Position numbers and translations under genes: made by a program. The notes below the pieces were generated by a model. It did no database searches. It worked only from the letters and a program-made list of their open reading frames with translations, and was not told the DNA's origin. From the IMG/VR virus record IMGVR_UViG_3300028840_002089, positions 1 through 24,630 of that record: a DNA stretch of 24,630 nt, one strand, 5' to 3'. The stretch is from a virus. Of the stretch, positions 7,420-22,074 are shown piece by piece (position 1 is the stretch's first letter; every line of letters begins with the position of its first letter).

Positions 7420-8094
7420 ATGAAAAAAAAGAAATTTTTGAAATTCGGAATCGTTGTGTTTCTGTTGGCGGCCATGCTGACATTCATGGGTGCGTGGAGA
7501 GAGGTAGCCACGATAACCAAGGGGTATTTTAAAGAGATTCGGAACCTGACCGGTGAAGATCTCAATATTTATCAGCCGAAGTTTCATTCCGGTGTGACTT
7601 TACCGGGTTCAACCCCGATTATCAGCGATCCCGTTGTGGTCGATTTGGCGGGTACGTCTTATTATACCATCGACCGGGCCAATGGGTCTGAGTTCTGGAT
7701 TGACGACCATGAGAGCACCCTCGGCACACGGGTTTCAAGCGGTGTTTCTATTCTTCTACCTAAAATAACCGCAAGTTATGACGGTTACGAGGTAAAAATT
7801 TTAAAAGCCCCAGGGTTAACTTCTCCGGGCGGTTCGGGTGCAACGACCTTCAGCGGCACCACGAAGATTGTTATATCAATTGCAGGAACGACCGCATCTT
7901 CTGGAGTCACAGACCATATATGGAATGCAACAACCGGTGTAACCTATGAGTCACAATATGCCACATGGTCAGGTAGCACTACGGAGTTGTGCGAAGTTTC
8001 TGAAATTGATGCCGTTGGCGATTGGTTGAAGTTTAAAGCTTTGTATGACTCTTCCGGCTCCACATGGTATCAGGTAGGCCGTTACATTCAGTAA
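7420..8094 (+). CDS. Secreted protein of unknown function with signal peptide
   Basis: The 224-residue product begins with four Lys residues, a hydrophobic core (IVVFLLAAMLTFM) and a likely cleavage site at FMGA (about residue 25), a textbook Sec signal peptide. The mature part is rich in Ser, Thr, Gly and Val, predicted beta, and resembles virion or appendage beta-sandwich proteins, but no family is recognised. A GAGAGG ribosome site precedes the ATG. It is the only gene between two strong terminators (7354-7390 and 8117-8157), so it is effectively a separate transcription unit unless readthrough occurs. It is the first of a series of signal-peptide proteins in this virion cluster. Confidence 0.75.
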   Translation: MKKKKFLKFGIVVFLLAAMLTFMGAWREVATITKGYFKEIRNLTGEDLNIYQPKFHSGVTLPGSTPIISDPVVVDLAGTSYYTIDRANGSEFWIDDHESTLGTRVSSGVSILLPKITASYDGYEVKILKAPGLTSPGGSGATTFSGTTKIVISIAGTTASSGVTDHIWNATTGVTYESQYATWSGSTTELCEVSEIDAVGDWLKFKALYDSSGSTWYQVGRYIQ

Positions 8095-8116
8095 AACAGA
8101 GCACGCTATCAGAATT

Positions 8117-8157
8117 TTAAAACCTCAAGGGCTTTTTTGGCCTTCGGGGTTTTTTTA
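8117..8157 (+). terminator. Intrinsic terminator
   Basis: AAAACCTC pairs with GGGGTTTT (one U-G pair), and AAGG with CCTT further up the stem, with a one-base bulge between. The stem is followed by a run of seven T. It lies 22 bases after the secreted-protein stop and before the scaffold gene. Confidence 0.8.
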
Positions 8158-8215
8158 TGCCGACCCGAATCCCGTTCGCATTAGCAACGGCTCGGGCGGC
8201 TAAGTCAGGGAATCC

Positions 8216-8248
8216 CGGCAGTAGGGCGACGGCCAAGCTCTACTGCCG
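8216..8248 (+). promoter_or_regulatory. Stable hairpin in the scaffold-gene leader
   Basis: CGGCAGTAG (8216-8224) pairs perfectly with CTACTGCCG (8240-8248) around a 15-base loop. It lies 12 bases before the AAAAGGAGA ribosome site of the scaffold gene. With no T-run it is not a terminator. It could protect a processed mRNA 5' end or set translation level. The rest of 8158-8272 shows no gene or tRNA. Confidence 0.5.
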
Positions 8249-8272
8249 ACTCCCCGCAAAAGGAGAATCAAT

Positions 8273-9298
8273 ATGGCAATCCCAGATCAAGCATTGGCTG
8301 CCGAAAAAAAAGCCGACGAAATGTTGGAAAAAATGATCAATGACGAGACCCCCGGCGAAGAAACACCGGATCTCGACATTGAAGGAGAAGAAAAGGAAGT
8401 CGTTCCGGAAGGTGAGGAACCCGGTCAGGAGCCCGGCGAGGAGCCTGTAGAGGGCCAGGAAGAAGATGCCCCGAGAGAGGATACGGTTGATTACTGGAAG
8501 CAGCGTTTCAAGGTGGTGGAAGGTAAATTGGGGGAAGTCACTACCCTTGTCGATCGAGTCAATAGCCTGACGATCCAAAATGCGGAGTTGTCCCGGCTGT
8601 TGACTGATGCCCGAAAGCCCAAAGAAGATGAGGGGGATGAAGAACCCCCGGAAGATGGGCAGACCTTCCTTAACCTCATGACCGAGGAGGAACGGGAGGT
8701 AGTCGATAGGGATCTCGGTGAGGATTCTCTCGACATTATCGGTAAAGTCGTTCAACGGATAGCCGATGATGCCGTGAAGCCGGTCAAGGATAATGTTGAG
8801 ACGATCCACAGGGAAACCGCGAAAACCAAGGAAGAAGCATATTACGATACCCTCGACGCCGCTTTCCCTGATGGTGAGTGGGAGCGGTGGAACAAGGACC
8901 CGAATTTCAATAACTACATGGCGACCCAAAAACTCCCCTATACCGATACTCCCTACAAGATTGTCCTCCAGGAAGCGGATCGGGCCCTTGATGCCGGTAA
9001 GGTCATCGAAATCATCAACGATTACAAAAAAGCGAATGATCTTCCGGTGTCTCGGAAGAAACCCGTACCGGAGAAGAAACCCGGGCCTCCGAAAAAGCAA
9101 GAACACGTTGACCCGAAACGCGGTGCAGGGCCGGAAATTCCGTCAACCACCACAGGAGACGGAAAGATCTGGACCGTGAAGGAAATTCGGGAATTCTACA
9201 AGGATTCCGCGATCGGGAAAAAGTACACCGAAGAAGAACGGCTAAAAATAGATAAGGATATTTCCAACGCCCACTTGGAAGGGCGGATCAAACAATAA
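8273..9298 (+). CDS. Putative capsid scaffolding protein
   Basis: Scaffold proteins direct capsid protein into a correctly sized procapsid and then leave. The 341-residue protein is placed directly before the capsid gene. It has a Glu/Pro-rich acidic N-terminal third (about residues 20-70), a coiled-coil-like stretch (about 75-115), further acidic linkers, and a Lys/Pro-rich segment (about 262-290) followed by a short helical C-terminal domain ending in ISNAHLEGRIKQ, likely the capsid-binding end. This build is typical of podovirus scaffolds. AGGAG precedes the ATG. The call rests on position and composition, not on a sequence motif. Confidence 0.8.
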   Translation: MAIPDQALAAEKKADEMLEKMINDETPGEETPDLDIEGEEKEVVPEGEEPGQEPGEEPVEGQEEDAPREDTVDYWKQRFKVVEGKLGEVTTLVDRVNSLTIQNAELSRLLTDARKPKEDEGDEEPPEDGQTFLNLMTEEEREVVDRDLGEDSLDIIGKVVQRIADDAVKPVKDNVETIHRETAKTKEEAYYDTLDAAFPDGEWERWNKDPNFNNYMATQKLPYTDTPYKIVLQEADRALDAGKVIEIINDYKKANDLPVSRKKPVPEKKPGPPKKQEHVDPKRGAGPEIPSTTTGDGKIWTVKEIREFYKDSAIGKKYTEEERLKIDKDISNAHLEGRIKQ

Positions 9299-9304
9299 AA
9301 TTTC

Positions 9305-9358
9305 CGGGTCTGACGAGCGAGGGTTTTTACCCGAGTGGCGGGGGCCGGTTCTCCCGCC
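9305..9358 (+). promoter_or_regulatory. Structured leader of the capsid gene
   Basis: Two hairpins lie between the scaffold stop and the capsid start. CGGGT (9305-9309) pairs with ACCCG (9329-9333), and TGGCGGG (9336-9342) pairs with CCCGCCA (9353-9359). The first holds a run of five T in its loop but none after the stem, so neither is a standard terminator. A strong AAAGGAGA ribosome site follows at about 9398-9405. They may stabilise the capsid mRNA. Confidence 0.45.
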
Positions 9359-9411
9359 AGCCTGGACAGTAGCCAACCGGGGTGAATCTACCAAAAAAAA
9401 GGAGATGAATT

Positions 9412-9549
9412 ATGGCAGATTATCCAGTTTCGGTAGGCGTTACAACCATGTCTTCAACGTACATTCCGGAGATATGGAGTGGTAAAACCCTTGTTAAATT
9501 TTATAAATCGACGGTGTTCGGGGAAATCGCGAACACCGACTATGAGGGT
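9412..9549 (+). CDS. Major capsid protein, exon 1
   Basis: The first 46 residues of the capsid protein. They carry the conserved opening of P22-coat-like capsid proteins (STYIPEIWSGKTLV, then FGEIANTDYEG). The frame meets a TAA at 9550-9552, which is the first codon of the intron, so unspliced RNA yields only this short peptide. The exon ends GAGGGT, which pairs with GCCCTC in the intron (9566-9571) to form the P1 helix with a U-G pair at the splice site. The ribosome site AAGGAGA is eight bases upstream of the ATG. Joined to exon 2 the protein has 303 residues with a phase-0 junction. Confidence 0.9.
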
Positions 9550-9758
9550 TAATTGAGATAATTTGGCCCTCTTTAAACCCTGTGAATTGCTGGAACACCC
9601 TAAAGCCTGTACGCCACAACGTGGCCGGTAACGGCGAGCGTGATGGCCTGAAAAGCGACAGGATGAAACAATGGGCAATCAGCAGCCAAGCCCCCCGGAA
9701 ACGGGGTGAAGGTTCAACGACTAAGGGAAGTAGCCTAAACTTCGGCAAGGCAAAACCC

Positions 9759-10349
9759 TCACGAGCGCAGGGCTTTTTTTCGAGGTTTCTTGTCAGGGCC
9801 TCTACCTTTTTTGCCGATATGGTGTTTTGCGGTATGTGCGGAAAGCGGCATTATTTCAAGGTTCTCAATGCGATTGTCGGCTTTGTCTCCATTTATGTGA
9901 TGGATCAATTCCCTTGGGTCAAGGATTCTGCCAAGGCGTTCTTCCATGACAAGCCGATGCTTTCTAACGTACCCTTTGCTGTCAGCGTGTGGGTGTTCAG
10001 GACATTGGACCATGATGTATCCGTTGTGCGTAATGATGTACCCTTTATGGTATCTGTCGGGAATGGCGATTCCGTGTTCTCTTCCTGCCCTGGAAATAGA
10101 GGAAGAGGAAAACTTAAGGATTTTGCCAATTTCGGGGGCAGTAAAGCCTTTAGCAGCAAGCCCCTTCACTTTGTCAGTGGGTACAGTTCGGCGCTTTTTT
10201 TCAATGCCAAACCTATTCATGTAATTCAGGACACATTTTTTACTGACACCATATTTTTGGGCAATTTTTACGGTAGAGTGAAGATCGCTGTAGTCTTCCT
10301 CAAGCATTTGCTTGGTAAACACTACATTAAGTATTCTTCTTCCTTGCAT
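9759..10349 (-). CDS. HNH homing endonuclease encoded antisense in the intron
   Basis: The enzyme would cut intronless copies of the capsid gene, so that repair copies the intron in. The 196-residue product has two helix-turn-helix-like segments (about residues 24-50 and 58-94), likely for target recognition, then an HNH_3-type domain: GYVRKHRLVMEERLGR (126-141), LIHHINGDKADNR (148-160, with H150, H151, N153, D158, N159), ENL and a distal H172. The Lys/Arg-rich tail may bind DNA. A strong GGAGG lies seven bases before the ATG on the minus strand, and a promoter-like pair lies further upstream at 10375-10404. Expression opposite to the intron RNA is unusual: the gene must be read from its own promoter. 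Confidence 0.92.
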   Translation of the reverse strand: MQGRRILNVVFTKQMLEEDYSDLHSTVKIAQKYGVSKKCVLNYMNRFGIEKKRRTVPTDKVKGLAAKGFTAPEIGKILKFSSSSISRAGREHGIAIPDRYHKGYIITHNGYIMVQCPEHPHADSKGYVRKHRLVMEERLGRILDPRELIHHINGDKADNRIENLEIMPLSAHTAKHHIGKKGRGPDKKPRKKALRS

Positions 10350-10374
10350 AACTTAACCTCCTGTGTTTTGGGTA

Positions 10375-10404
10375 ACTATATCACCATAAGCACCCATTTC
10401 GCAA
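10375..10404 (-). promoter_or_regulatory. Sigma70-like promoter for the antisense endonuclease gene
   Basis: Read on the minus strand, TTGCGA (10404-10399) and TATAGT (10380-10375) are 18 bases apart, matching 4 of 6 and 5 of 6 consensus positions. The -10 lies 25 bases upstream of the endonuclease start codon, leaving room for the GGAGG site. It falls between the endonuclease start and the 3' half of P7, so it does not disturb the catalytic core. Confidence 0.5.
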
Positions 10405-10480
10405 GTAAAAAGATGATATAGTCTGAGCTTGTCGGAGACGGCAAGAAGGCAGGATAAAGAGCCTGTCGATAACACAACTG

Positions 10481-11254
10481 GAAATCAAGGCATACGGCGA
10501 TAAGGTCCACATCCGGATTATCCCCGACATTACCATCAATGACTATACCATCGGGCAAAAGCTCAACCGGGAACGCCCGGCCACGGCAGACGTTGAACTC
10601 GATATCGATCATGGCAAGTATTACTCGTTCAAGATCAACACGGTCGAGAAGGCCCAGGCGGACATCAACTATATTGAAAAGTGGTCCGACGATGCCGGGC
10701 AGCAGATGTCGATTAAAATTGATAGTGATATTCTGGGCGATGTTTACTCCGATGCCCATGCGAGCAATGCCGGGGCCACGGCGGGGGTTAATTCCTCCGC
10801 GTTCGATCTCGGTACGGCGGCAGCCCCGGAGAGCATCGATAAAACCAATATTCTCGATTATATCGTCGATCAGGGGACCGTCCTGGATGAACAGAACGTT
10901 CCGCAAACTTCCCGGTGGTTGCTCTTTCCCCCGCTTTTCTGCGGTATGATCAAGAAATCCGACCTGAAAGACGCTTCATTGGCCGGGGACGGAGTATCGA
11001 TCATGAGGAATGGGAGGCTTGGGACCATCGACCGATACACCATTTATTCAACCAACAACCTGAACTCTACTGCGGGCGTTTTCGATTGCATGTCGGGACA
11101 CCCGACCGCCATCACTTTCGCCTCTCAGTTGGTCGAAAACCGGATCATCCCGGATCCTGACGACTTCGGGGATATCATGGAGGGTCTACAGGTCTTCGGG
11201 TACAAGGTTATCAAGTCCGAATCCCTGGTTCATTTCGTGGCCCAGAAAGCGTAA
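10481..11254 (+). CDS. Major capsid protein, exon 2
   Basis: This exon gives 257 residues and completes the 303-residue capsid protein. The frame is open through the splice site, and the joined sequence reads TDYEG followed by EIKAYGDKVHIR, the continuous conserved segment expected in P22-coat-like (HK97-fold) capsid proteins. Further family-like parts are PDITINDYTIGQ, the strand-rich YYSFKINTVEKAQ and the C-terminal DRYTIYSTNNL and KVIKSESLVHF. It has no start or ribosome site of its own at the 5' edge; an internal ATG at 10706 is not needed. A GC hairpin follows the stop at 11260-11280. The insertion point lies in a highly conserved codon stretch, as is usual for homing introns. Confidence 0.92.
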   Translation, partial: EIKAYGDKVHIRIIPDITINDYTIGQKLNRERPATADVELDIDHGKYYSFKINTVEKAQADINYIEKWSDDAGQQMSIKIDSDILGDVYSDAHASNAGATAGVNSSAFDLGTAAAPESIDKTNILDYIVDQGTVLDEQNVPQTSRWLLFPPLFCGMIKKSDLKDASLAGDGVSIMRNGRLGTIDRYTIYSTNNLNSTAGVFDCMSGHPTAITFASQLVENRIIPDPDDFGDIMEGLQVFGYKVIKSESLVHFVAQKA

Positions 11255-11259
11255 ACCAA

Positions 11260-11280
11260 ACGGGGACCAGGTGTCCCCGT
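11260..11280 (+). terminator. GC hairpin after the capsid gene
   Basis: ACGGGGAC (11260-11267) pairs perfectly with GTCCCCGT (11273-11280) around a five-base loop, starting six bases after the capsid stop. No T-run follows, so it is more likely an mRNA-protecting or processing hairpin, or a weak terminator, than a strong stop. Confidence 0.5.
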
Positions 11281-11313
11281 AATTCAAAAAAGAAGCATTG
11301 GAGGACATAATTT

Positions 11314-11766
11314 ATGGCTACTTATACCGGTACAATCAACGTCGGGGCGACCGAAATATCGAACCTCGAATTTCACAGAATGTTCGTGATGAAAATGCGC
11401 CTGGTTATCGCCACGGAGATGGCGGCCCAAACCACACCCGCTGCGAACGGGTATTTCACCATTGCGGACGTGATCAAGATGGCCACATGGCCGGCGCGGT
11501 GTGTGCCGCTGCTCCTTATGACTGAAGTTGTTACGCCATCCACGGCCGCGGCCACGGCGGATATCGGGTTTGCAGGGGGGCAGGAGCTTGAAGCGGGTTT
11601 CGATTGCGACGCGGCCGCGGGAACCTGCACCACGGATAGCTGCATGGATGCGGCGGTTGCCTCCGGTTTCATAGACGGTGATACCGTCGATTTCGAGGTT
11701 TTGACCGCGAATATGTCCGATGGCGATTACAGGTTCTATATCGTCGGCTTCGATATGGACGCCTGA
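11314..11766 (+). CDS. Putative capsid decoration or structural protein
   Basis: The 150-residue product follows the capsid gene at once and is bounded by hairpins on both sides, which suggests high, independent expression. It is Ala/Thr/Gly-rich and predicted beta. It has four cysteines in the mature core, three of them close together (CDAAAGTCTTDSC, about residues 93-105), which could be cross-linked. It has no signal peptide. GGAGG lies nine bases before the ATG. No family is recognised; the decoration role is inferred from size and place. Confidence 0.6.
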   Translation: MATYTGTINVGATEISNLEFHRMFVMKMRLVIATEMAAQTTPAANGYFTIADVIKMATWPARCVPLLLMTEVVTPSTAAATADIGFAGGQELEAGFDCDAAAGTCTTDSCMDAAVASGFIDGDTVDFEVLTANMSDGDYRFYIVGFDMDA

Positions 11767-11796
11767 TCGTAAACACCTTTTTTACCAAAAAACCTG

Positions 11797-11824
11797 AAAA
11801 CCGGGGTTTACAGCCCCGGTTTTT
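11797..11824 (+). terminator. Strong intrinsic terminator
   Basis: AAAACCGGGG (11797-11806) pairs perfectly with CCCCGGTTTT (11814-11823), with a seven-base loop and one further T. It closes the scaffold-capsid-decoration block. The next gene begins 19 bases later, so the genes after it need readthrough, antitermination or their own promoter. Confidence 0.85.
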
Positions 11825-11842
11825 ATTTAAGAGGAGATGAAA

Positions 11843-12202
11843 ATGCCTAAATTTCTAAGGAAATCAGACCCGACTTCAACACAGATATTCAATTGGAGCG
11901 CGGCTCAGGCTGCCAAACCGGGCATGATCGAATGTGACGAAAAGGGTACGCCAACCATGTCATTGGCCCTGGAACCGAGGGCCAGGGGGAAGTACATTTC
12001 CCAGATGAACAAAGCCGACCTCACCCGGTTCGTAAAGGAAGAATACGGCCTTGAAGTCGATCAGGAGATGAGGGTGGAGGATGTCCGGGCATTCGCTACG
12101 GGGGAAAAGGCCGCAAGGGAAGAGGCTGTTGCAAAGTTGATCGAAAGCCTTTTCGGGAAGGCCATAACGCGCGGGGAGTCTCCCGACGATGACTTTCGAT
12201 GA
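11843..12202 (+). CDS. Hypothetical protein in the head-tail block
   Basis: The 119-residue product is not recognised. ATG 11843 is chosen over ATG 11837 because GAGGAG (11831-11836) abuts the latter and lies six bases before the former. The protein has a short beta-like N-terminal part and a helical, charged C-terminal part containing LTRFVKEEYGLEVD and KAAREEAVAKLIESLFGK. Its end overlaps the connector-like gene by 14 bases. Its position after capsid and decoration genes suggests a head completion or assembly role. Confidence 0.6.
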   Translation: MPKFLRKSDPTSTQIFNWSAAQAAKPGMIECDEKGTPTMSLALEPRARGKYISQMNKADLTRFVKEEYGLEVDQEMRVEDVRAFATGEKAAREEAVAKLIESLFGKAITRGESPDDDFR

Positions 12203-13148
12203 TATCATTGGAGATCTCGGGAACGACCCTACGGGGCCCCAGGAGGGCATGAAGAAGGACTTGATCCTGAAGGCCTTACAGGACCTTTGCCGAAAGACGT
12301 TTGCCTATTCGGAACTATTCGCTTTCCTTTCAACTGCCGGGACCTATGAGCACACCTTGACGCCTTCGGTGTCGAATACGTCCGTTATCGGGGTATTGCC
12401 GAACAGTGCCCGGATTGCAACAGTCAATTCCCCCGTTCCATCGGCGGCAGCCGGAACCGATGCGGGAGTTCTCGTGAGCGGCACGACCTATTATTACAAG
12501 GTTACGGCCTGTTGTGATGATTATCGCGAAACCCTTCCGTCTTCGGTTTGTTCAGCGAAAGCCGACGCCAACGGGAGCATCGATATCAGTTGGTCCGCTA
12601 TCGAGAATGCCGACAGCTACAAGGTTTATGGCCGAACAGACGGCAATTGGCTCTATATGGCCGAGGTCACGTCAGGGGTTGCGTATACTGATGATGGGAG
12701 CGATACACCGGCTGGAGCCATCCCCACGAAAAGCCCCCTCATGCGAGACATCAAGCTTGTCAACGAAGCCTTCCTACAGACCTTCAACCGTTATTGGAGG
12801 GGTTATGAGAGCGACAACGTTACCGGCGTGATCTATGACGGAAAAACGACACTGGCCCTGAATAGAATTCCGGTAACAACGGGGATAGGCTTTCAGGTGC
12901 AGCAGGTCCTTTACCCTACCGGCGTAATCGACATTCCGACCGTCCTTGAATCCTACGTGAGCGCAATCACCGATTTCGTCAAATGGCGACTCTACGTCAT
13001 GCCCCCATCCAAAACGATCACATGGAGCAATATCGATTTGGGCTTGCAGTACCGGAAGGATTATTTTCGGCAAATGTTCGAACTTCGGGGGAAGGTCGTG
13101 AGGAGCTTCGGGGGTGAACACAGGGTAACGCCTCAGTTTTTTTGTTAA
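12189..13148 (+). CDS. Putative head-tail adaptor with inserted Fn3-like domain
   Basis: The 319-residue protein has ends typical of podovirus adaptor proteins: an N-terminal helix DLILKALQDLCRKTFAYSE (about 24-42) and a helical C-terminal region (VSAITDFVKWRLYVMPP, then LQYRKDYFRQMFELRG, about 260-305). Between them, about residues 95-175 look like a fibronectin type III or Ig-like domain (TTYYYKVTACCDD, DISWSAIENADSYKVYGRT, then AYTDDGS). Such domains are common surface add-ons in phage virions. It overlaps the previous gene by 14 bases, with GGGGAG upstream of the ATG. It has no signal peptide, unlike the next gene. Adaptor role: inferred from pattern and place. Confidence 0.65.
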   Translation: MTFDDIIGDLGNDPTGPQEGMKKDLILKALQDLCRKTFAYSELFAFLSTAGTYEHTLTPSVSNTSVIGVLPNSARIATVNSPVPSAAAGTDAGVLVSGTTYYYKVTACCDDYRETLPSSVCSAKADANGSIDISWSAIENADSYKVYGRTDGNWLYMAEVTSGVAYTDDGSDTPAGAIPTKSPLMRDIKLVNEAFLQTFNRYWRGYESDNVTGVIYDGKTTLALNRIPVTTGIGFQVQQVLYPTGVIDIPTVLESYVSAITDFVKWRLYVMPPSKTITWSNIDLGLQYRKDYFRQMFELRGKVVRSFGGEHRVTPQFFC

Positions 13149-13160: not shown

Positions 13161-13892
13161 ATGAATCGTAAATTTCCATTGATCATTGTACTATTTCTGG
13201 TTCTTTTCTTTTCCTGCCACTCCTTGTTTGCGGCCTCCCGGAGCACGAACGACAAGACCGTTGCGGATCTCGTTGCAGAATCCCGGTATCTTCTTGATGC
13301 GATAACGGAAAGCGGCACAACCGACCCGATGTTCCCCGATGCCTTCATGGAGGTGTGGGTAAACAACGGGATTAAGAACGTCGCCTCCTGGACGCATTGC
13401 GTGGAAGACTCCGAACGGCATATTCTGAACAGCGGTACGTCCGAATATGCCATGACCTCCAATTACATCACCATCAAAAAGGTCATGTATCAGAGCGGGG
13501 CGACTGATTACAAATCGTTGACCCACGGAACCGACGATGCAAGAGGAAAAAACGAAGGTAACGTTGCTCATCCAGAGTTCTGGTATGAGGGGATTGGTAC
13601 GGTCGGCGTTTACCCCCTGCAGGATGCCGAATACACCACAGTCACAGGCAACACCATCTATGTGACGTTCGTTCCCACCCACACGACTCTTGCCGCAGGC
13701 GACACCGTTACGACCCCGCAACAATACAACGATTTGATTGTCTACTATACGGTCGCCAAAGCCCTTTTCAAAGACCGGAAGCTTACTGCACTCAGGGTTG
13801 TCATGGAACTTTACGCAATGGAAGCCGATCGATACAGGCAGGATTTCATATACAAGCCAAAAAAATCATTGGATGAGGTTGTAAATCAATAA
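13161..13892 (+). CDS. Adaptor-like protein with a Sec signal peptide
   Basis: The 243-residue protein starts with MNRK, a strong hydrophobic core (LIIVLFLVLFF) and a likely cleavage site after SLFA (residues 21-24), so it should be exported or membrane-anchored. The body is like phage head-tail adaptors: a helical start (TVADLVAESRYLLDAI), a central DPMFPDAFMEVWVNNGIKN segment, and a C-terminal helical pair (YNDLIVYYTVAKALFKD, then MELYAMEADRYRQDF). GAGGTAGG precedes the ATG. If the resemblance is right, export is surprising for a protein that should bind the portal in the cytoplasm. The signal peptide could also be an added membrane tether. Adaptor assignment is moderate; the signal peptide is clear. 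Confidence 0.65.
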   Translation: MNRKFPLIIVLFLVLFFSCHSLFAASRSTNDKTVADLVAESRYLLDAITESGTTDPMFPDAFMEVWVNNGIKNVASWTHCVEDSERHILNSGTSEYAMTSNYITIKKVMYQSGATDYKSLTHGTDDARGKNEGNVAHPEFWYEGIGTVGVYPLQDAEYTTVTGNTIYVTFVPTHTTLAAGDTVTTPQQYNDLIVYYTVAKALFKDRKLTALRVVMELYAMEADRYRQDFIYKPKKSLDEVVNQ

Positions 13893-13907: not shown

Positions 13908-14438
13908 ATGAAAAAAATATTGATCAGTTTATTTCTGGCATCCCTTTTAATTCCTGCCTTTTCGTATTCGGCGGATAGCAGCACATATACCCTTGATCTG
14001 GGGGCCGGGATTACCTACCCCTCCGATGGAGACCCGCCTTCCGGCACGACTATGGTGGGGTCCGGTACGTCGATTCTCGTAATTTCCACAAAAGGGCTCA
14101 AGAGGTCGCACGGAAGAAATACTATCGCGAATATCGGGGAACTTGAGGGTTATTTCACCTTTCAGCTATCGGAGGTCACGCCCTGCCAGAGCCAGTTGAG
14201 CGCAGGCGGGGACTGGTCAGGCACGACGCTTACGGTGCAGTACAAAACCTCGAACCACGACACCGATGAGCATTGGGCCGCCGAGACCGCCACAACCATC
14301 CTGAACGGCGTTGCCATATCCGGCACCACGCGGGTAAAAGTCAACATGACGCCCACCTGGGCCAAGTTTATGAGGCTGGAAGTGGTGTCGGGCATTACCG
14401 CTCTCGGATGGTTGAGCGGCGTGCTGTACGCGAAATAG
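13908..14438 (+). CDS. Secreted beta-rich protein of unknown function
   Basis: The 176-residue product has a clean signal peptide (MKKILISLFLASLLIPAFSYS, cleavage before ADSS near residue 22). The mature part is Ser/Thr/Gly-rich with alternating strands, including TTLTVQYKTSNHDTDEHW and a C-terminal WAKFMRLEVVSG, resembling jelly-roll virion or surface modules. No family is recognised. It begins 16 bases after the adaptor-like gene, behind GGGAG, and is followed after nine bases by another signal-peptide gene, so the three are likely co-translated. Confidence 0.65.
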   Translation: MKKILISLFLASLLIPAFSYSADSSTYTLDLGAGITYPSDGDPPSGTTMVGSGTSILVISTKGLKRSHGRNTIANIGELEGYFTFQLSEVTPCQSQLSAGGDWSGTTLTVQYKTSNHDTDEHWAAETATTILNGVAISGTTRVKVNMTPTWAKFMRLEVVSGITALGWLSGVLYAK

Positions 14439-14447: not shown

Positions 14448-14708
14448 TTGAAAAAGAAATTTATTTTTTCATTTTTGGCGGTCTTTGCGATTCTTTCATT
14501 TTCATTTTTTGCATGGGGTTGGATGCACAAAGGACCGTGGGACGGTACAAAACCATGGAGCAGGTTTGTCCCATGGAAGGTCTTATTCCCGGCAGGAAAT
14601 CCGTGCTGGTCGGACGGAGAATCAAGCCTTTATACTTCTTCATCTGCGAACAAGTCTATCGTTCGTTGGTCGGACGGAGAATCTTTTCTTATTGAGGGAA
14701 ATCCATGA
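14448..14708 (+). CDS. Small secreted protein with internal 20-residue repeat
   Basis: The start is a TTG at 14448, five bases after AGGGGA; no ATG in this frame fits. The 86-residue product opens with MKKKFIFSFLAVFAILSFSFF, a signal peptide or membrane anchor, followed by a Trp-rich, short mature part. WSDGES occurs twice, 20 residues apart, each time encoded by the same 17 bases. The stop overlaps the start of the beta-helix gene (ATGA), so translation is coupled. Function unknown. Confidence 0.55.
   Translation: MKKKFIFSFLAVFAILSFSFFAWGWMHKGPWDGTKPWSRFVPWKVLFPAGNPCWSDGESSLYTSSSANKSIVRWSDGESFLIEGNP
14607..14683 (+). repeat. 17-bp direct repeat, 60-base period
   Basis: TGGTCGGACGGAGAATC occurs at 14607-14623 and 14667-14683, exactly 60 bases apart and in the same reading frame, encoding WSDGES both times. 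The bases between and after the copies are not alike. This is either a decayed tandem duplication or a conserved functional sequence. Confidence 0.8.
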
Positions 14709-16084
14709 AAAAATTAATTTTATTCTGCGTTTGTTTAATCGTTTTTTACGTGCCGACAGCCTGCTTTGGTGCGGCTTATACGGCCACCGGGGACGGTCTT
14801 TTTGAGGCTGCGGCCACCTGGGGCGGCGGGGGATGGCCGGACACAGCGGGCGACACATTTACGATTCCGGCGGGCATGGCGGTACTCGTTTCACAGGAAC
14901 ACCGGCACGCCCTCGGGGAATCACAGGTGAACGGCACGCTTGGAATCGCCACAAATCTGAACAATACGGTAGGTTTGCGTTTTGGGGATGCGGACCTGAA
15001 TGTAGCATCCGGGGCCACACTGATAATGCTCGAACAGGAAACGGGAGGGGTCAACTTGCCCGTCGAGTCCGGAGACACGGCTTACCTGGAGTGGGACACA
15101 ACGGCTGATAATGCCTCCGGGGTGTCTTTGGCTCAGGGGGCGATATTCTGGGCCAAAGGCACGTTGAGCGGCACGACTTATGTAGGGGCCTTGGCCGATG
15201 ACGCTGAAAGCCACGACGACGACAACGACATCAAAACCGTCTCCGCCATGGGCTGGAGTGTCGGGGACGAGTTGGCCATACACACCAAGCACACATGCCT
15301 AACATCTACTTGCTACCTGACCGATGTTTCCTTTCGTAAAATCAACGCCATATCCGGCACATCTATCACGCTTGAAGCCTACGGGGGCAACCCTGCGGCA
15401 GACAGCGGAGTAACGACCGTAAATACGGGCTGCGGGAGCACATGGACAGCGAGGGTTATCAACCTAACACGGAATGTCCGGGTCGAAAAGGTGGATTATT
15501 TGCCTAACCCAGGCAAGTACGGTGGGACAAACAGGCCGAGAATTGTTCACAACGCTACGGCACACGGTAACTTTGAAGTCACCCTTAGCAAAATATCCAT
15601 CGCTGGGCACAGCCAGATTGATTTGCCTGTCGGATACAACGACCTTTGGGAACTCGATGACGTGGTCATAAAACACCAGGGGTACGCTTTTGACGAAAAT
15701 AGCCAAGGCTTTGATTTTAACGGTGTCGCAACTAACCTGTCTTACTTTTGCGAAGATGGATGTATTGAAGTAACTGCTGATGGCTTTATTTTTGCAAACA
15801 CGGGAGCTTATCGTAACACCAACAGGGGAATCACCTCCGACGCTGATTATTTTGCGATCAGGTATCTATCGAGCGGAACGCTAGTTAACTCTACGTTTAC
15901 GGGCGATGTCTACGCAAGCTATGGTACTCACCTTGGAGGCTACAACAATATTTTTAACGGCACTCATTTTTTTGGCAACGGATACACGATGTTTTGGGGC
16001 GGAACTGGGCACACTTTTATAAATTGTGAGTTCGGCTGGACGCCTGAAGGGTCAGGGGTGACGAACGTCTCCGACGACTGGTGA
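14705..16084 (+). CDS. Secreted beta-helix appendage protein, N-terminal part (ends at in-frame TGA)
   Basis: The 459-residue product starts with a signal peptide (LILFCVCLIVFYVPTACFG, cleaved near residue 23). It continues with a G8-like opening (ATWGGGGWPDTAGDTFTIPAG, here shown at 37-57 only in outline: W, WP, D, TIPAG key positions). Turns of a right-handed beta-helix follow, with Asn/Gly-rich coils such as GYNNIFNGTHFFGNG and HTFINCEFGW near the end. It is probably a virion appendage or surface polysaccharide-binding protein. Cysteine pairs (CLTSTC, CEDGC) suit an oxidising compartment. The TGA at 16082-16084 interrupts a frame that stays open to 16714 and continues the same type of coil (LVNCKTEG), so this looks like the first 459 residues of a 669-codon gene. 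Confidence 0.7.
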   Translation: MKKLILFCVCLIVFYVPTACFGAAYTATGDGLFEAAATWGGGGWPDTAGDTFTIPAGMAVLVSQEHRHALGESQVNGTLGIATNLNNTVGLRFGDADLNVASGATLIMLEQETGGVNLPVESGDTAYLEWDTTADNASGVSLAQGAIFWAKGTLSGTTYVGALADDAESHDDDNDIKTVSAMGWSVGDELAIHTKHTCLTSTCYLTDVSFRKINAISGTSITLEAYGGNPAADSGVTTVNTGCGSTWTARVINLTRNVRVEKVDYLPNPGKYGGTNRPRIVHNATAHGNFEVTLSKISIAGHSQIDLPVGYNDLWELDDVVIKHQGYAFDENSQGFDFNGVATNLSYFCEDGCIEVTADGFIFANTGAYRNTNRGITSDADYFAIRYLSSGTLVNSTFTGDVYASYGTHLGGYNNIFNGTHFFGNGYTMFWGGTGHTFINCEFGWTPEGSGVTNVSDDW

Positions 16085-16093: not shown

Positions 16094-16119
16094 CAATTAG
16101 AGGCCAGGTTGGTCAATTG
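16094..16119 (+). other. Hairpin just downstream of the in-frame TGA (SECIS-like candidate)
   Basis: CAATT (16094-16098) pairs with AATTG (16115-16119). After a three-base bulge (AGA), GGCC (16102-16105) pairs with GGTC (16111-16114) with one G-U pair, leaving an apical loop AGGTT. It begins nine bases after the TGA, with the loop GG about 22 bases from it. Bacterial SECIS elements lie in this range and need a G in the loop. The stem is short, so this is only a candidate. Confidence 0.3.
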
Positions 16120-16714
16120 TAAAACAGAGGGCAGGGGCAGCGATAACGGAACGACAAAAACTGGCGGGTTTCAATTCGGATCAAGGACATACGAACATGC
16201 CCATACCATTATAACCAGCGAACATCACGACCAGGTTTTAAACGCACACTATACATGGTTTCGGAACGGAGACATAGAAAAAGTTGCCGCCGACGGTTCC
16301 GGTGTGACGCCAACACAGAACTCAATGGGGGTTTCCGGTGGAGATGTCATTGAGTGCAGGTTTGTTTATTCTGATGTGAATGAGGTGTCCCCCCTATCCC
16401 CGATTCGGAATCACCAGGTTTGGGCGCAGGCGGATACAACAAAGACATATCGGTATTATATCCAATCAAACTATACAACAAACATCACCGATATCAAGCT
16501 AACCGCCGAATACCTGGACACCGCATCGAGCGGACATATCGCCACAAAAGAGGCGACCGCTACCATAGCTCCGAGGTCAAATACGGCAGACTGGAGCCAA
16601 TACATAGAAATTGAGGTCACACCGGCAGAAGACGGCTGGGTTCGTCTGCAACTCGACATTTACCAATACGAGGCGTCCAAGTACGTTTGGGTGGACCCGG
16701 AAGTGAGGTATTAA
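16109..16714 (+). CDS. C-terminal part of the beta-helix protein, or separate 201-aa protein
   Basis: This frame is the same as that of the gene at 14705 and is open from 16085, right after the TGA. As a separate gene it would start at TTG 16109, five bases after AGAGG, giving 201 residues without a signal peptide. Its first residues (LVNCKTEGRGSDNG) look like one more coil of the upstream beta-helix, then a beta-rich C-terminal domain ends in YVWVDPEVRY. Three readings are possible: readthrough or selenocysteine insertion at the TGA, restart at TTG, or a nonsense mutation or sequencing error. The stop TAA overlaps the next ATG as TAATG, so this part is translated at least in the intact operon. 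Confidence 0.6.
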   Translation: MVNCKTEGRGSDNGTTKTGGFQFGSRTYEHAHTIITSEHHDQVLNAHYTWFRNGDIEKVAADGSGVTPTQNSMGVSGGDVIECRFVYSDVNEVSPLSPIRNHQVWAQADTTKTYRYYIQSNYTTNITDIKLTAEYLDTASSGHIATKEATATIAPRSNTADWSQYIEIEVTPAEDGWVRLQLDIYQYEASKYVWVDPEVRY

Positions 16715-19700
16715 TGCGCATACGCGCGATTCAAATATTTCTGATTTTTTTTGTCGTTGTAATATCGTCTATTGCCACGGGTGCGCCCAGAAGCATCGTA
16801 TTTGACGGCAAGCTGGAAAAGCTGGCTCCCTCCATCGCCCTCCAGGACGGCTCAGTAAAAGAACTCCGGAACGTCCAGCGACCGAACCCGACCGTTCCTC
16901 TCGGGTGGGATAGGCGAACAGGGAACACCAAGTACAATACGACCGCTATTGCATCGGATGAAGTCAAGGGTATATTCCAGTATGTCAACGCAGAGCACGA
17001 TATCCATGCCTTTTATGCCCAATGTGGTGATGCCATCTATACGGGAAGCACATCCCCGCCAAGCGAAGGGACTTTTTTGTCTTCTACCGCTTCGGGCCGG
17101 GAAGCCCACAATGACGGCAATGCAGCATCGGACCCTTACGGGAACGAATCGGGAACAACAACAGGGTTTACCCATGTCGGTCTTGATAGCGGTAATTCGT
17201 TCTATGCAAACCCCACGGCTGTTGCCGTTGGCTCATATTCTCTTTGTGCCAACGGGAATGAAGCCGGTGCTCCCCCGATGGACACCCGGTTTTATAAGGA
17301 TATCGGAACCGACTGGAGCCTTGTGGATGGCGGAAGATATACGATCTCTTTTTCATGGCGACACGTAGGGGCAGGCGGCGATTGGTTTGTAAGGCTGGCA
17401 TCTTCCACAAATGGTGCGAGCGGACAAGATTTAGCGGATATGGTTGAAAGCACTGATACGACATTCGTTTCAGTAACCTATACCTTCACTTATTCAACCT
17501 CATACAGATATTTGGTTTTCAAGGAACACGGGGGCACTAATGATGGCGGCGTTTATGTCGATAATTTAAGTCTCCGTGAGCATTTCGATTACAGCATGGA
17601 CTCCGGCACGTCTCCCCTTTTCGGAGAACGAATCAATGACGATATGGTTTGGGCCGGAACGGGGACCACCCCCTTCGCCTATTCGGGAGGCGCCACCTAC
17701 CCCGATGCCTTTCTTGTCAAACACGAAACCGGAACGACCCTTTATGTGGACGGTTGGGACAGGGTAAGGGATAAACGGCAGGACACGAACATTTCCCTCG
17801 TCGCCCACTCCGGCGCATCGGAAATGATGTATTGGGGCTTTAGAAGGCGGTTGGATGGATTTACATTGGACGTTCTTAGTGGCGGTACTGAGATCGGCGG
17901 CGGGGTCACGCTGGAAGCCCGGAGGTCCGGTACATGGACAGCCGTTTCAAACCTCACCACGCTTTCAACGGATACGCGAGTCGTTGCATCATGGGATGCA
18001 TCGATCGATGATGACCCCTATCTGCTGCCGGGGACCAAGACACACCTTTACTGGTACAGGTCCGGGGTCACGAATGACGTTACGGACGGTATCAAGGCAT
18101 GGCGGGTACGCATAAATGACCGCATGGAGGAAATGACCAACCTTTGGAGCGGGTATTATGATATCGCGCTCGGTTGCCTGCTTTCCTCTGTTACCGGGTA
18201 CACGGATTACTCGGGTGAGGTCACGGACGGCACGGATGCCGAATACGTGGACGTTGGCGGGTTGACGACCTCCTATGCGCTTTATGTGGGGTTTGCTAAT
18301 CCGGCATTTGGGATCAAATTAAACATTGTTCCGGAAAACCCGAACCTTGGGACATCATGCACACTTTCCACCGTAAAATATTGGGACGGGAGTAACAATA
18401 CATGGACTTCGGTGGGCACGATTCAGGACGGCACCAGTTACAACGGGTATGCCCTCGGGCAGAGCGGTACAGTCCAGTGGGATGGCGGGTCGATTCACGA
18501 AGATAAAAGGGTTTTAGGCGGGATACTGACGCCTCTCTATTGGTATGAACTGAAATGGAGCGTCACTCTCCCGAGTGATGTTTATATATGGGAGGTAGCG
18601 CAACTCGAAAAGCCCTCCACCATCCCGCCCTTTCCGAAATATGACGGGGTGATCGAAAGTAACGGATATGCGGTTTACTGGCCGGGAAACAGGTTTAAGA
18701 ACGGCCTTGACTTCGCGCAGATGGGGTATCCTTACATTAAAAACGGGCCATTGCAGGGTCAGAGCGGGCCTATCTTCGGGCCCGGGACGGTGAACGCTGT
18801 CACAAGGATCTCGGACTACCTTATTGTTTCGACCAAAAACCCCTATCGGCTGTATTTCCTTGAGGGGAAGGTTCCGGGCAAGTGGGACAGCCTCAATATC
18901 GCATCGACTGTGGGCGCGGTAGGGCCTCATGCCATGATAACGATCGAGGACGCCGTAAGGCGTTTTTCAACAACGAAATCCGTTCACGCAGGCATTTTGA
19001 TGTCCCATGACGGCGTTTATTTGGCCGAGCGGGTTGTGATTAACATTTCCGGGCCGATTGCCAATTATTGGGACACCGGATCTACCCCGTACATTGAACC
19101 GGATTACATGCAGGACGTTCACGCCTGGATCGATTACAGGCGAAAACTGGTTCTCTTTGCCGTTCCGATGCACTTCGACAGCACCCAGACCACAAAGAAC
19201 GTGATTCTTCCATACAACTACCTCACTGACGAATGGTACGACATCTGGATGCTGGCCGATGACGCCAGTTGCGGAATTGATCTTATCGGAAACGACGACC
19301 AGCGAATGGCCTATATGGGGGATTATAACGGGTATGTCCACCGGATGAATACGGGGGCCGATGACAACAGCACGAAGATTGATCATTATTTGGTCACATC
19401 GGACATTATCAACCCGGAAGTTCCCGGGGCGCTCAATTATCAAAGTATTCTCCGATCGGTAAAAATCAAGGCGAAAACATGCGATTCGGGAGACGTTGAA
19501 GTGGTGACGTACCCGGACGGCCATAAAAGCGGGGTTACGTTGGACTCAATTTCTCTGACGAACAGCGGCTACAATTGGGTTGCCGGAAGGATTCAGGCCG
19601 AAGAAAGGGGGGAATCGTTTTCTTTCAGGTTCAGGAGCGGGATAGACGACGCGAACGAATATCTTGATGATTTCGTGGGGTTTACGGTCGATCTCGATCC

Positions 19701-19725
19701 TTTGAGGGAGACGCCTTTTAACTGA
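16714..19725 (+). CDS. Large tail protein (nozzle/hub-like) with signal peptide and inserted jelly-roll
   Basis: ATG 16714 overlaps the upstream stop (TAATG) and has GAGG upstream; an earlier start at 16687 is unlikely. The 1003-residue protein begins with a signal peptide (MRIRAIQIFLIFFVVVISS, cleavage near IATGA). Then comes a segment typical of podovirus tail proteins: LAPSIALQDGSVKELRNVQR with PLGWDRRTG. About residues 110-290 look like an inserted carbohydrate-binding jelly-roll (GGRYTISFSWRHVG, GGVYVDNLSLRE). The C-terminal half has propeller-like repeats (NGYAVYWPGNRF, SDYLIVSTKNPYRLYF, SHDGVYLAERVV, YRRKLVLFAVPM, YNYLTDEWYDIWM). It resembles the tail nozzle family of T7/P22-like phages. 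A signal peptide on such a protein is unexpected. Confidence 0.75.
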   Translation: MRIRAIQIFLIFFVVVISSIATGAPRSIVFDGKLEKLAPSIALQDGSVKELRNVQRPNPTVPLGWDRRTGNTKYNTTAIASDEVKGIFQYVNAEHDIHAFYAQCGDAIYTGSTSPPSEGTFLSSTASGREAHNDGNAASDPYGNESGTTTGFTHVGLDSGNSFYANPTAVAVGSYSLCANGNEAGAPPMDTRFYKDIGTDWSLVDGGRYTISFSWRHVGAGGDWFVRLASSTNGASGQDLADMVESTDTTFVSVTYTFTYSTSYRYLVFKEHGGTNDGGVYVDNLSLREHFDYSMDSGTSPLFGERINDDMVWAGTGTTPFAYSGGATYPDAFLVKHETGTTLYVDGWDRVRDKRQDTNISLVAHSGASEMMYWGFRRRLDGFTLDVLSGGTEIGGGVTLEARRSGTWTAVSNLTTLSTDTRVVASWDASIDDDPYLLPGTKTHLYWYRSGVTNDVTDGIKAWRVRINDRMEEMTNLWSGYYDIALGCLLSSVTGYTDYSGEVTDGTDAEYVDVGGLTTSYALYVGFANPAFGIKLNIVPENPNLGTSCTLSTVKYWDGSNNTWTSVGTIQDGTSYNGYALGQSGTVQWDGGSIHEDKRVLGGILTPLYWYELKWSVTLPSDVYIWEVAQLEKPSTIPPFPKYDGVIESNGYAVYWPGNRFKNGLDFAQMGYPYIKNGPLQGQSGPIFGPGTVNAVTRISDYLIVSTKNPYRLYFLEGKVPGKWDSLNIASTVGAVGPHAMITIEDAVRRFSTTKSVHAGILMSHDGVYLAERVVINISGPIANYWDTGSTPYIEPDYMQDVHAWIDYRRKLVLFAVPMHFDSTQTTKNVILPYNYLTDEWYDIWMLADDASCGIDLIGNDDQRMAYMGDYNGYVHRMNTGADDNSTKIDHYLVTSDIINPEVPGALNYQSILRSVKIKAKTCDSGDVEVVTYPDGHKSGVTLDSISLTNSGYNWVAGRIQAEERGESFSFRFRSGIDDANEYLDDFVGFTVDLDPLRETPFN

Positions 19726-19939
19726 TCAGTTCAAGACAGTTTTTTGTAGGGTTATACTTGTGCCAATAAAGAGGCTCATCAATGCCATAAAGATAATGTT
19801 TCATTTTTGGCAATGCCTGATCCGGGCAAGTAGGTATAAAAACTTGGATGACGCGATGCTTAGAAATCAATGTATCACACAGTATACAGGTTAATGTAAT
19901 AAATATAAATACCATGAATCCAATGAACGTTTTTTTCAT
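19718..19939 (-). CDS. Small secreted protein on the minus strand
   Basis: The 73-residue product opens with MKKTFIGFMVFIFITLTCILC, a signal peptide or N-terminal membrane anchor, followed by a short hydrophilic part with two further Cys-flanked segments. There is no good lipobox. On the minus strand AGAGGT lies six bases before the ATG, and a promoter-like pair lies further upstream (19967-19995). The stop overlaps the end of the tail gene by eight bases, tail to tail. The DNA is AT-rich relative to the tail gene. Opposite orientation, own promoter and AT content mark it as an accessory (moron-type) gene; function unknown. Confidence 0.65.
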   Translation of the reverse strand: MKKTFIGFMVFIFITLTCILCDTLISKHRVIQVFIPTCPDQALPKMKHYLYGIDEPLYWHKYNPTKNCLELIS

Positions 19940-19966
19940 GTCGTGACCTCTTTAGGCTTTAAGAAA

Positions 19967-19995
19967 ACGATATCAAGGGAAACCACAAATGTAAA
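19967..19995 (-). promoter_or_regulatory. Sigma70-like promoter for the minus-strand accessory gene
   Basis: On the minus strand TTTACA (19995-19990) and TATCGT (19972-19967) are 17 bases apart, matching 5 of 6 and 4 of 6 consensus positions. The -10 lies 27 bases upstream of the ATG at 19939. The region between the two divergent genes (19940-20036) has no other clear signal. Confidence 0.5.
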
Positions 19996-20036
19996 GCTAA
20001 AACTTTGGTGACCAAGGTTTAGTGAGGTTTGAGGTA

Positions 20037-20462
20037 ATGAATATGAACACCGCAACGATTGAGCCATGTTTGATTTTAACAGTAGGCTTGCCGAGAAGTG
20101 GCAAGAGCACGTGGGCACACAAGCAAAAATGTCCAGTTGTGAACCGGGACGCTATCCGCCTTGCCTTGCATGGACAGGCGTTTATCGTTAACGCTGAGCC
20201 GATGATTACAGCCATTGAAGAATACATGGTTAAATCCCTATTTCTTGCGGGGCACAAAAAAGTCATTGTTGATGCGACGCACTTGAAAGAAAAGTACATC
20301 AAAAGATGGGATGTTGGTCCATGGGACTTGCAAACACACATTCTTACAACATCAAAAGAAGTTTGCATTGAGCGAGCAAAGGCAGACAACAGAGAAGACT
20401 TAATACCAATAATCGAAAGAATGGCAGGGGACAACGAGTGGGACAACCGATCCTCGCAATAG
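20037..20462 (+). CDS. T4 Pnk-like polynucleotide 5'-kinase
   Basis: Enzymes of this family phosphorylate 5'-OH ends of RNA or DNA with ATP. The product (about 141 residues) has Walker A GLPRSGKST (17-25), then VVNRDAIRLALHG like the substrate-binding segment of T4 Pnk kinase, and VIVDATHLKEKYIKRW like its later conserved segment. It is close to the T4 kinase domain in size but lacks the fused phosphatase; a HAD phosphatase gene overlaps its end by 25 bases. Start: ATG 20037 (GTGAGG nine bases upstream); ATG 20043 and GTG 20022 are alternatives. The pair may repair nicked tRNA or DNA ends produced by host defences. A nucleotide kinase role cannot be excluded. Confidence 0.8.
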   Translation: MNMNTATIEPCLILTVGLPRSGKSTWAHKQKCPVVNRDAIRLALHGQAFIVNAEPMITAIEEYMVKSLFLAGHKKVIVDATHLKEKYIKRWDVGPWDLQTHILTTSKEVCIERAKADNREDLIPIIERMAGDNEWDNRSSQ

Positions 20463-20836
20463 ATTTTGATGGCGTTTTACACAGTTATTCAAGCGGATGG
20501 CAGGGACCACGCAATATTCCTGACCCACCTGTAGAGGGATCCATTGAATGGCTGGAAGACCTTTTAGGGTGTCCTGATTATTTCGGGATAGGGCCCCGAT
20601 ATAAAGACTTCAGGGTTATGATATTTTCATCCAGAAGTCGGTATATTGGTGGACGCAGGGCAATGAAAAAATGGCTTGTGAAGCATGGGTTAGATGTCAA
20701 TTACCTTGAGCTTATTAAGTTTCCGCTTATGAAACCTCCTGCTTTTTTACAAATTGACGATAGGGCTATTGCTTTTAATGGCCAGTTCCCGACAGTGAAA
20801 GAAATGAAGGCTTTTAAGCCGTGGAATAGGAAATGA
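20438..20836 (+). CDS. HAD-family phosphatase, partner of the kinase
   Basis: The 132-residue product has HAD motif I AIDFDGVLHS (D9, D11), motif II Ser in IFSSRS (about 62-67), a Lys at 99 before motif IV, and motif IV QIDDRAI (D107, D108). It starts at GTG 20438, seven bases after AGGGG inside the kinase gene, so the two are translationally coupled. In T4 Pnk a 5'-kinase and a HAD-type 3'-phosphatase are fused in one protein; here they are separate, overlapping genes. A joint end-healing role is inferred from this layout; a free nucleotide phosphatase role is possible. Confidence 0.78.
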   Translation: MGQPILAIDFDGVLHSYSSGWQGPRNIPDPPVEGSIEWLEDLLGCPDYFGIGPRYKDFRVMIFSSRSRYIGGRRAMKKWLVKHGLDVNYLELIKFPLMKPPAFLQIDDRAIAFNGQFPTVKEMKAFKPWNRK

Positions 20837-20840
20837 AATT

Positions 20841-21128
20841 ATGAAAATCCTGTTTCTCATAATCTTTTTAACGGCTGGCCCGAAGATATTTGACATGAAA
20901 TACGTTCCGTCTATGGAGGCAGCCGAAAAAGCCGTCGAAAGATACAGGGAAAAAGAGACCTATCCGGCAAGCATCCTGTACGAGTTTGATGTGGAAACGA
21001 AAGAATTCAAGCAACTGAAGAAACCATGGAATGAAAAAGATCCGGAATATATCATTATGCCTTCTCGCCCTGCTTATACTGGCGACAACCATTCAGGCGG
21101 CCCTCCGCCTGCCGGGAATGGGGAGTGA
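20841..21128 (+). CDS. Small hypothetical protein with hydrophobic N-terminus
   Basis: The 95-residue product starts MKILFLIIFLTAG, a short hydrophobic stretch, then charged sequence and a Gly/Pro-rich end. An AGGA-like site precedes the ATG, four bases after the phosphatase stop. The last 98 bases overlap in another frame with the start of the Cys-rich secreted protein, whose signal peptide is coded there. Such nested signal-peptide genes recall phage spanin pairs, but no lipobox or clear transmembrane helix supports that. Function unknown. Confidence 0.55.
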   Translation: MKILFLIIFLTAGPKIFDMKYVPSMEAAEKAVERYREKETYPASILYEFDVETKEFKQLKKPWNEKDPEYIIMPSRPAYTGDNHSGGPPPAGNGE

Positions 21129-22074
21129 TGAAGATACGTTGAGTGATCACATCGGGCGTACACAGGAATCAGACATTGAACCCGCGAGACCGATGGACAG
21201 GGAAGGCAAGCAGATAATAAGAAAGAACCCCGTTCGAAAGGCGTCAGAGGACAAGGCCCCATGGAAAGGGGATGGCGAGATTGACAGCCTATGGGACATG
21301 GAGCTTGATTATTACCCCCATGCGGAAACAACTCCCTGGAACTTTAAGGATTTCCCGATTATTGAGGACTTTTATCAAAATCCCCCGTTTGTTGATGGAT
21401 ACGCGCAACCGTGGTTCAGATGGGGGGGGACTCCGGAAGATGCCGATATTCCCGAAGGAATCGGGGCATACGTAACAGGATGCGTGATTTCAATGCCCTC
21501 TCATGTGACGAACTGTTATCAGCCTATTTTTGGAAAATTTGTAATAAAGCCAACCGCAGTTACAAGCATAAAGGTTTATGGCGCTGCCAAGCTTCTATCT
21601 TATAACGCTGAAACAAATGTTATCGCCATAATGCCGCTTTTTAAAGATGCCCGATGGGTGGGGATTTTTACCGACACGGTTAAGGTCGTTGCGACCGGCA
21701 TGACGTTATTGGGAGGGAAAAAGTATTACGGCGAATGCGAAGCCACTATAGCTTTTTCCTGTACGGATTGTTGGGTTTACTTGGGTTATCTCACACCTGC
21801 CGGCGCGGGGGTTCTTTGCGGACCATCTAACGCGACAGGCTGTAGATCCGATCCATTTGATTTCAACCTTATAATAGGCGATAGCCGATGGTCCCCGATG
21901 GCCGGGAAATGCCGGGATACTTATAACTTAGCGACATGGACACCAGGATCATTACCCGCCCCTCCGGGATACACGCCCCATACCTTCGCCCTGGCTAACG
22001 GGTGTGGCGGATGTGGCGCTGGTTGCTATGCAGGTATGGGCGTCAGGTATTGGGAGTGGGCATGCGAAGATTAA
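21031..22074 (+). CDS. Cys-rich secreted protein of unknown function
   Basis: The 347-residue product has a Sec signal peptide (MKKIRNISLCLLALLILATT, cleavage near IQA). The N-terminal third is acidic and low in structure, then a predicted beta-rich part follows. The mature protein has 12 cysteines, many in pairs (CEATIAFSCTDC, CGPSNATGC, GCGGCGAGC), suited to disulfides outside the cytoplasm. No family is recognised. The start at 21031 has only a weak ribosome site and lies inside the previous gene in another frame; reading through that frame probably helps initiation. The end overlaps the next gene by 13 bases. Confidence 0.7.
   Translation: MKKIRNISLCLLALLILATTIQAALRLPGMGSDEDTLSDHIGRTQESDIEPARPMDREGKQIIRKNPVRKASEDKAPWKGDGEIDSLWDMELDYYPHAETTPWNFKDFPIIEDFYQNPPFVDGYAQPWFRWGGTPEDADIPEGIGAYVTGCVISMPSHVTNCYQPIFGKFVIKPTAVTSIKVYGAAKLLSYNAETNVIAIMPLFKDARWVGIFTDTVKVVATGMTLLGGKKYYGECEATIAFSCTDCWVYLGYLTPAGAGVLCGPSNATGCRSDPFDFNLIIGDSRWSPMAGKCRDTYNLATWTPGSLPAPPGYTPHTFALANGCGGCGAGCYAGMGVRYWEWACED

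Follow-up and report, generated by a model that had tools for sequence, protein, structure and literature searches.

A late region with tagged genes beside untagged head genes

The window, meaning the whole stretch of DNA analysed here, is a 24,630-base linear IMG/VR fragment from an uncultured phage, and it is the late region of a short-tailed phage of the SU10-portal type. Coordinates given without a contig name refer to its plus strand unless marked (-). The packaging and head genes of such a phage occupy its first half and include the terminase large subunit (2058..3725), the SU10-type portal protein (3712..5880; Pfam PF23899), a scaffold-like protein assigned by position and composition (8273..9298), and the major capsid protein (9412..11254), none of which carries a signal peptide (SP).

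A group I intron (about 9550-10480; Rfam RF00028, E 1.9e-15) interrupts the coat gene. The coat reading resumes across the intron (...NTDYEG / EIKAYGDK...), and an HNH-like, endonuclease-like ORF lies antisense within it (9759-10349 (-)). Insertions were also found at or near the coat-gene start in relatives (L024 3511-4095, L005 12664-13263, and L032 17289-19130), either as endonuclease-like ORFs beside truncated coat ORFs or as a coat ORF lengthened to 613 aa; it looks as if this site were invaded again and again.

A separate contig, L010, is nearly identical to the left part of the window and reaches about 7 kb further upstream. Its early region contains genes that we read as repressor-like (HTH), helicase-like, replication-protein-like, and RusA-like, and the window phage is therefore probably temperate. 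Within the window, two adjoining small genes (20022-20462 and 20438-20836), one P-loop kinase-like (AAA_33, E 4e-10) and the other HAD-phosphatase-like, look as if they were a split polynucleotide kinase/phosphatase.

Signal peptides of individual products

A preliminary description of this DNA had assigned Sec signal peptides to seven products of the late cluster and to one minus-strand gene. We confirmed Sec-type SPs at the start of six, namely 13161, 13908, 14448, 14705, 16714, and 21031. Their N-termini are basic (MNRK, MKK, LKKK, MRIR), each has one hydrophobic segment with a 19-residue Kyte-Doolittle mean of 1.97-2.57, and all six contain the small-x-small cleavage motif, with small residues at -3 and -1. 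A second segment of comparable strength is absent from these products (best 1.41 or less), and what follows the SP is soluble protein. Most SP starts are preceded by a Shine-Dalgarno-like sequence, which is weak at 21031. By inspection, the lipobox [LVI][ASTVI][GAS]C is absent from the seven SPs of the window.

The first of the six is a neck adaptor with an SP of about 25 residues (13161..13892). It is followed by a 176-aa protein with SP architecture and no assigned function (13908..14438; MKKILISLFLASLLIPAFSYSA|D), by an 86-aa SP protein with a TTG start and AGGGG ahead of it (14448..14708), and by a 459-aa spike-like SP protein (14705..16084), whose start is overlapped by the preceding gene and whose weak G8-domain similarity lies below the Pfam cut-off. 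A 201-aa protein without an SP (16109..16714; TTG start) stands between two SP genes, and its stop overlaps the ATG of the 1003-aa SP protein at 16714..19725. The last, a 347-aa SP protein with 12 Cys (21031..22074), overlaps ORF 20841 by 98 bases. A small one-helix membrane protein closes the block (22002-22343); its hydrophobic segment is likely an anchor rather than an SP, though our caller counts it, and the protein is possibly an inner-membrane spanin or holin partner.

Alternative starts are scarce in two of the six. Within the first 45 codons, 16714 has zero alternative ATG, GTG, or TTG codons and 13908 has only a TTG at codon 5; with no usable later start, the hydrophobic segment of these two products cannot be skipped in translation.

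The evidence was less uniform for the remaining two products. The 224-aa protein encoded between portal and scaffold (7420..8094) has the same architecture as the six, with an SP-like segment (MKKKKFLKFGIVVFLLAAMLTFMG) directly before AWREVATITK, but its -3 residue is poor (F-M-G-A|W) and the caller labels the segment as membrane. We set the boundary at this site despite the weak motif because homology places it there. The minus-strand gene, 19718(-), is an antisense ORF of 73 aa; it has a single hydrophobic segment, its cleavage site is poor, and its status as an SP product is doubtful.

Neck adaptor and nozzle candidate

The earlier proposal that 13161 encodes an adaptor was borne out by both profile and fold. 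The product matched Pfam SU10_adaptor (PF24175) with 37.6 bits against a cut-off of 27 (E 4e-9), and the match begins at residue 33, just past the SP. A structural model built with 12 SP-less adaptors contained a core of four helices and, set apart from it, an SP helix at the N-terminus, with a pLDDT of 59 and a better-scoring helical core. When this model was used in a fold search, the top 32 PDB matches were all phage portal, neck, or tail entries, among them the SU10 tail (7z47) at rank 4 (E 1e-3, prob 1.00). This tagged protein is the only SU10-type adaptor of the window above the Pfam cut-off, and the adaptors of relatives start without an SP. A second adaptor-like neck protein, also without an SP, is encoded at 12189..13148 (E 1.8e-13). 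No homologue of 13161 was matched by tblastn in 50,697 phage records, no close relative was found in the viral-contig scans, and the records reached through the loci gave no match.

The length and position of the 1003-aa SP protein suit a tail nozzle, as had been proposed, but this identity found no support in our comparisons. Profiles of the relatives' nozzle proteins gave E values of 0.2-1.2 and hhalign a probability of 0.5%, the single-sequence AlphaFold2 model reached a pLDDT of 31, too low to judge a platform or beta-propeller fold, and nothing usable on nozzle identity came from HMM, hhalign, PHROGs, or AlphaFold2. The failed profile test does not exclude a nozzle, since the SU10 and T7 nozzles likewise have no detectable similarity (PMC9509320). 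For 16687, tblastn found no match in the same 50,697 phage records, the viral-contig scans gave no close relative of it or of its C-terminus, and no match was obtained in the records reached through the loci.

Cys pairs had also been put forward as a general property of the SP proteins. The Cys content was 1.18% in the mature SP proteins versus 1.10% in the rest, with 21031 and its 12 Cys as the sole outlier, and we could not uphold this point.

Signal peptide frequency and distribution among relatives

The SP rates come from one home-made caller, applied alike to the window, its relatives, and opposite-strand ORFs. Among 41 E. coli genes it found four of five known SP proteins and also called two membrane proteins; the caller alone therefore cannot separate cut SPs from N-terminal anchors. 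In the window it called 7 of 27 co-oriented genes, comprising the six above and 22002 (7420 fails the strict rule), compared with 23/626 genes in all relatives examined, 4/432 in SP-poor relatives, and 6/311 opposite-strand ORFs. The excess in the window gave a Fisher p of 1e-4 against all relatives and of 3e-7 against the SP-poor relatives, the latter having been picked after looking at the data.

Portal-based searches led to about 80 related viral loci, and 17 of the larger records were examined whole or in large part. Tagged late or tail-type genes recurred in seven other records: G005, G013, G018, G019, G020, G032, and a Gammaproteobacteria MAG. On the portal tree, SP carriers (the window and five other records) made up six of the nine members of one clade with support of 100/100, and this clustering of the SP label was reached in 15 of 500 shuffles. 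The three clade members without tagged genes are G006 and G007, which are short, near-identical contigs, and the long G035.

The carriers differ in which genes bear the tag. A 922-aa SP protein of G032, which we read as an M16-type peptidase, probably belongs to host flank and was left out of the virion-related set, and a homologue search with the 146-aa SP protein of G020 gave G019 alone. G019 and G020 have SP-less nozzle and spike proteins alongside their SP proteins, and each encodes a very long nozzle-type protein of 1151-1162 aa (L130 7439-10927 in G020). The portal of G013 (L026 11658-14654, 998 aa) contains an insertion of ~240 residues between two homologous halves, possibly an intein. 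In G013 and G005, lysis-type genes follow the SP gene block (L024 11647-12450 and L021 6833-7854), namely a cell-wall hydrolase or peptidase-like gene, a small lipoprotein-like gene, and a membrane protein gene.

Signal peptides in front of conserved N-termini

The product of 7420 shares with its family the position between portal and scaffold, an N-terminal [AS][WDF]RE motif, and a downstream TK; beyond the N-terminal motif the family is divergent. SP-less members begin with MAWRENAVITK, MAWRENADITS, or MADRENADITK, and MSWRED is the start of a near relative located in a Gammaproteobacteria-class genome. The tagged members read SP|AWREVATITK in the window, SP|ADRENFSVGK in L043, and SP|KWFSRAVIDE in L022.

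In two fibre genes of G005, an SP directly precedes the fibre N-terminal domain; in G013 and in six annotated tail fibres from isolated phages, this domain begins at the initiator Met. One of the two SP fibres carries a Collar domain (PF07484, E 6e-24), and an SP fibre of G020 ends in Peptidase_S74 (E 4e-7). We also considered one shared, copied SP cassette and rejected it, as the SP DNA showed no similarity beyond the start region and lysine codons except between G019 and G020 orthologues.

Judged from these sequences, the SPs are segments added ahead of conserved N-termini, as would fit proteins that are exported and then used in the virion. Homologues thus do start downstream of the hydrophobic segment, an arrangement that the preliminary description had said would refute its own proposal. 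The comparison of starts does not refute the proposal, because the SP is additional coding sequence, in most cases preceded by a ribosome-binding site of its own, and several relatives carry it too.

Possible export of peripheral virion proteins

We tentatively favour, with a confidence somewhat short of even, the reading that peripheral virion proteins acquired SPs by grafting, would be exported, and would meet the heads at lysis or later. What the sequence itself shows is the SPs, the position of their boundary at the homologous N-terminus, the virion-type domains that follow, and the clustering by lineage; from these we infer export, cleavage, membership of the virion, and where and when joining takes place. 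Where an SP stands at the old N-terminus of several unrelated virion-type proteins, in several genomes, and the remainder of the protein is preserved, selection for export with the virion role retained is the best explanation.

Under this reading, Sec SPs would have been attached several times, to different genes, within the lineage of the window phage, giving a tagged set made up of fibres and the proteins associated with them, the neck adaptor, and the product of the gene between portal and scaffold. Heads, whose terminase, portal, scaffold, and coat proteins lack SPs, would form and fill in the cytoplasm of the host, which is probably a diderm bacterium. The tagged proteins would be exported through Sec, would be cleaved where the old N-terminus begins or stay bound to the outer side of the inner membrane, and would fold in the periplasm, to be met by the heads once lysis removes the intervening membrane.

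Heads built and filled inside the cell, together with tagged neck and fibre genes, suggest that virions are finished outside the cytoplasm. Since heads cannot be exported, joining would have to take place at lysis or later, in the periplasm, or on the inner membrane's outer face. Late joining appears feasible for fibres, given that P22 tailspikes are reportedly able to attach to otherwise finished heads in extracts, and it is harder for the adaptor, which normally helps retain packaged DNA. An exported adaptor could not hold packaged DNA in the cytoplasm, and we can only conjecture that 12189 might do so instead. The SP-less nozzle and spike proteins beside SP proteins in G019 and G020 are a further counterpoint, as they show that the division is not clean; so are the lack of Cys enrichment and the weak cleavage motif of 7420.

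The preliminary description had placed some virion parts outside the cytoplasm or tethered to the inner membrane. Its core, Sec-type signals on virion-type proteins, stands, while the nozzle, the general Cys pairs, and 19718(-) have dropped out of its support. Sequence does not separate a tether from full export; the positive N-region predicts an N-in/C-out orientation, so that even an uncut peptide would put the domain on the outer, not the cytoplasmic, face of the inner membrane. With rather more reserve, we suggest that this phage lineage may build its virions in two compartments. Heads would be filled with DNA in the cytoplasm, neck, fibre, and accessory proteins would be put together beforehand either in the periplasm or on the outer side of the inner membrane, and only lysis would allow the virion to be completed.

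The tagged proteins might instead be exported but stay free or surface-bound, no longer as virion parts, and act in receptor blocking, superinfection exclusion, polysaccharide digestion, or lysogenic conversion. This would suit the temperate-looking early region of the overlapping contig L010 and those SP proteins that are spike-like or have Ig domains, and phage exclusion lipoproteins are indeed exported (PMC11893012). We nevertheless consider it unlikely, because the tagged genes are interspersed among those of the late virion operon, the tag is on the one above-cut-off SU10-type adaptor of the window, the conserved N-terminal attachment-type regions are intact behind the SP, and inspection revealed no lipobox in the window SPs.

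We give slightly less weight still to peptides that do not serve export, with proteins folded in the cytoplasm that retain the segment for use in the virion or at the membrane during DNA delivery, or as an inner-membrane anchor for assembly. The small-x-small sites in six of the seven, good and at an SP-typical distance, speak against retention, as do the coincidence of the SP boundary with the N-terminus of the cytoplasmic homologue and the fact that the signal is the only thing common to these diverse proteins, its DNA being no copied cassette; the weak site of 7420, and a caller that does not tell SPs from N-terminal anchors, speak for it.

Production of two forms, a full-length exported one and a cytoplasmic one from an internal start that would serve as the virion part, seems improbable. 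In-frame candidates exist at codon 23 of 7420 (an ATG giving MGAWRE) and at codon 22 of 13161 (a TTG), but neither has a visible Shine-Dalgarno-like sequence before it, and a comparable start is missing from 16714 and, past the SP, from 13908. Finally, an artefact of wrong starts, chimeric assembly, or host genes, conceivable for an uncultured linear fragment with SPs judged by a home-made caller, is largely excluded by the SPs on late or tail-type genes in seven other records, of which five fall in the window's portal clade, by the ribosome-binding sites upstream of SP starts, and by the recurrence of the window's left part in the separate contig L010.

Comparison with known systems

The accepted view is that tailed phages complete their virions in the cytoplasm. 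If fibres and neck proteins are exported in some lineages, as our favoured reading proposes, virion maturation would be possible at or after lysis, and periplasmic chaperones could assist the folding of fibres. Such genes would then be mis-called by gene finders that cut off hydrophobic N-termini or label the genes as host secreted proteins. The paired SP and SP-less homologues make the export question directly testable by N-terminus exchange.

One paper on Acinetobacter phages predicted a single SP in one phage and none in another (PMC4128745), and a survey of phage hypervariable (DGR target) proteins found them to be without SPs, in line with phage origin (PMC6199706). Our search of the open-access literature found no report of tagged neck or fibre proteins, although absence of precedent is not proof of novelty.

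The portal-adaptor-nozzle tail of Escherichia phage SU10 (Kuravirus) resembles the window in its portal and adaptor families (PF23899 and PF24175) and in the adaptor fold, which matches 7z47. The SU10 structure paper describes the adaptor and nozzle and mentions no SP (PMC9509320), whereas the window adaptor has one. Tail fibres of Burkholderia phages BcepMigl and JC1, Serratia phage Parlo, Klebsiella phage LASTA, and similar phages share the N-terminal domain of the G005 SP fibres; these isolated-phage domains are 42-58% identical to the first sequence in alignment A6. Unlike the G005 fibres, these fibres have no SP and start with a Met that lies a few residues ahead of the conserved NNA motif.

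SAR and Sec-signal endolysins, spanin lipoproteins, and exclusion lipoproteins are likewise phage-encoded and exported by host Sec. Those proteins serve lysis or exclusion, whereas the signals described here stand on neck, fibre, and accessory virion-type proteins that have no lipobox or lysozyme domain. Coat proteins of the filamentous Inoviridae are virion proteins that are made with Sec SPs and assembled at the membrane. The likeness to the window lies in Sec SPs on putative virion proteins, here read from sequence, and the difference is that the window, with no filamentous-phage genes, belongs to a head-and-tail phage with a terminase and a portal.
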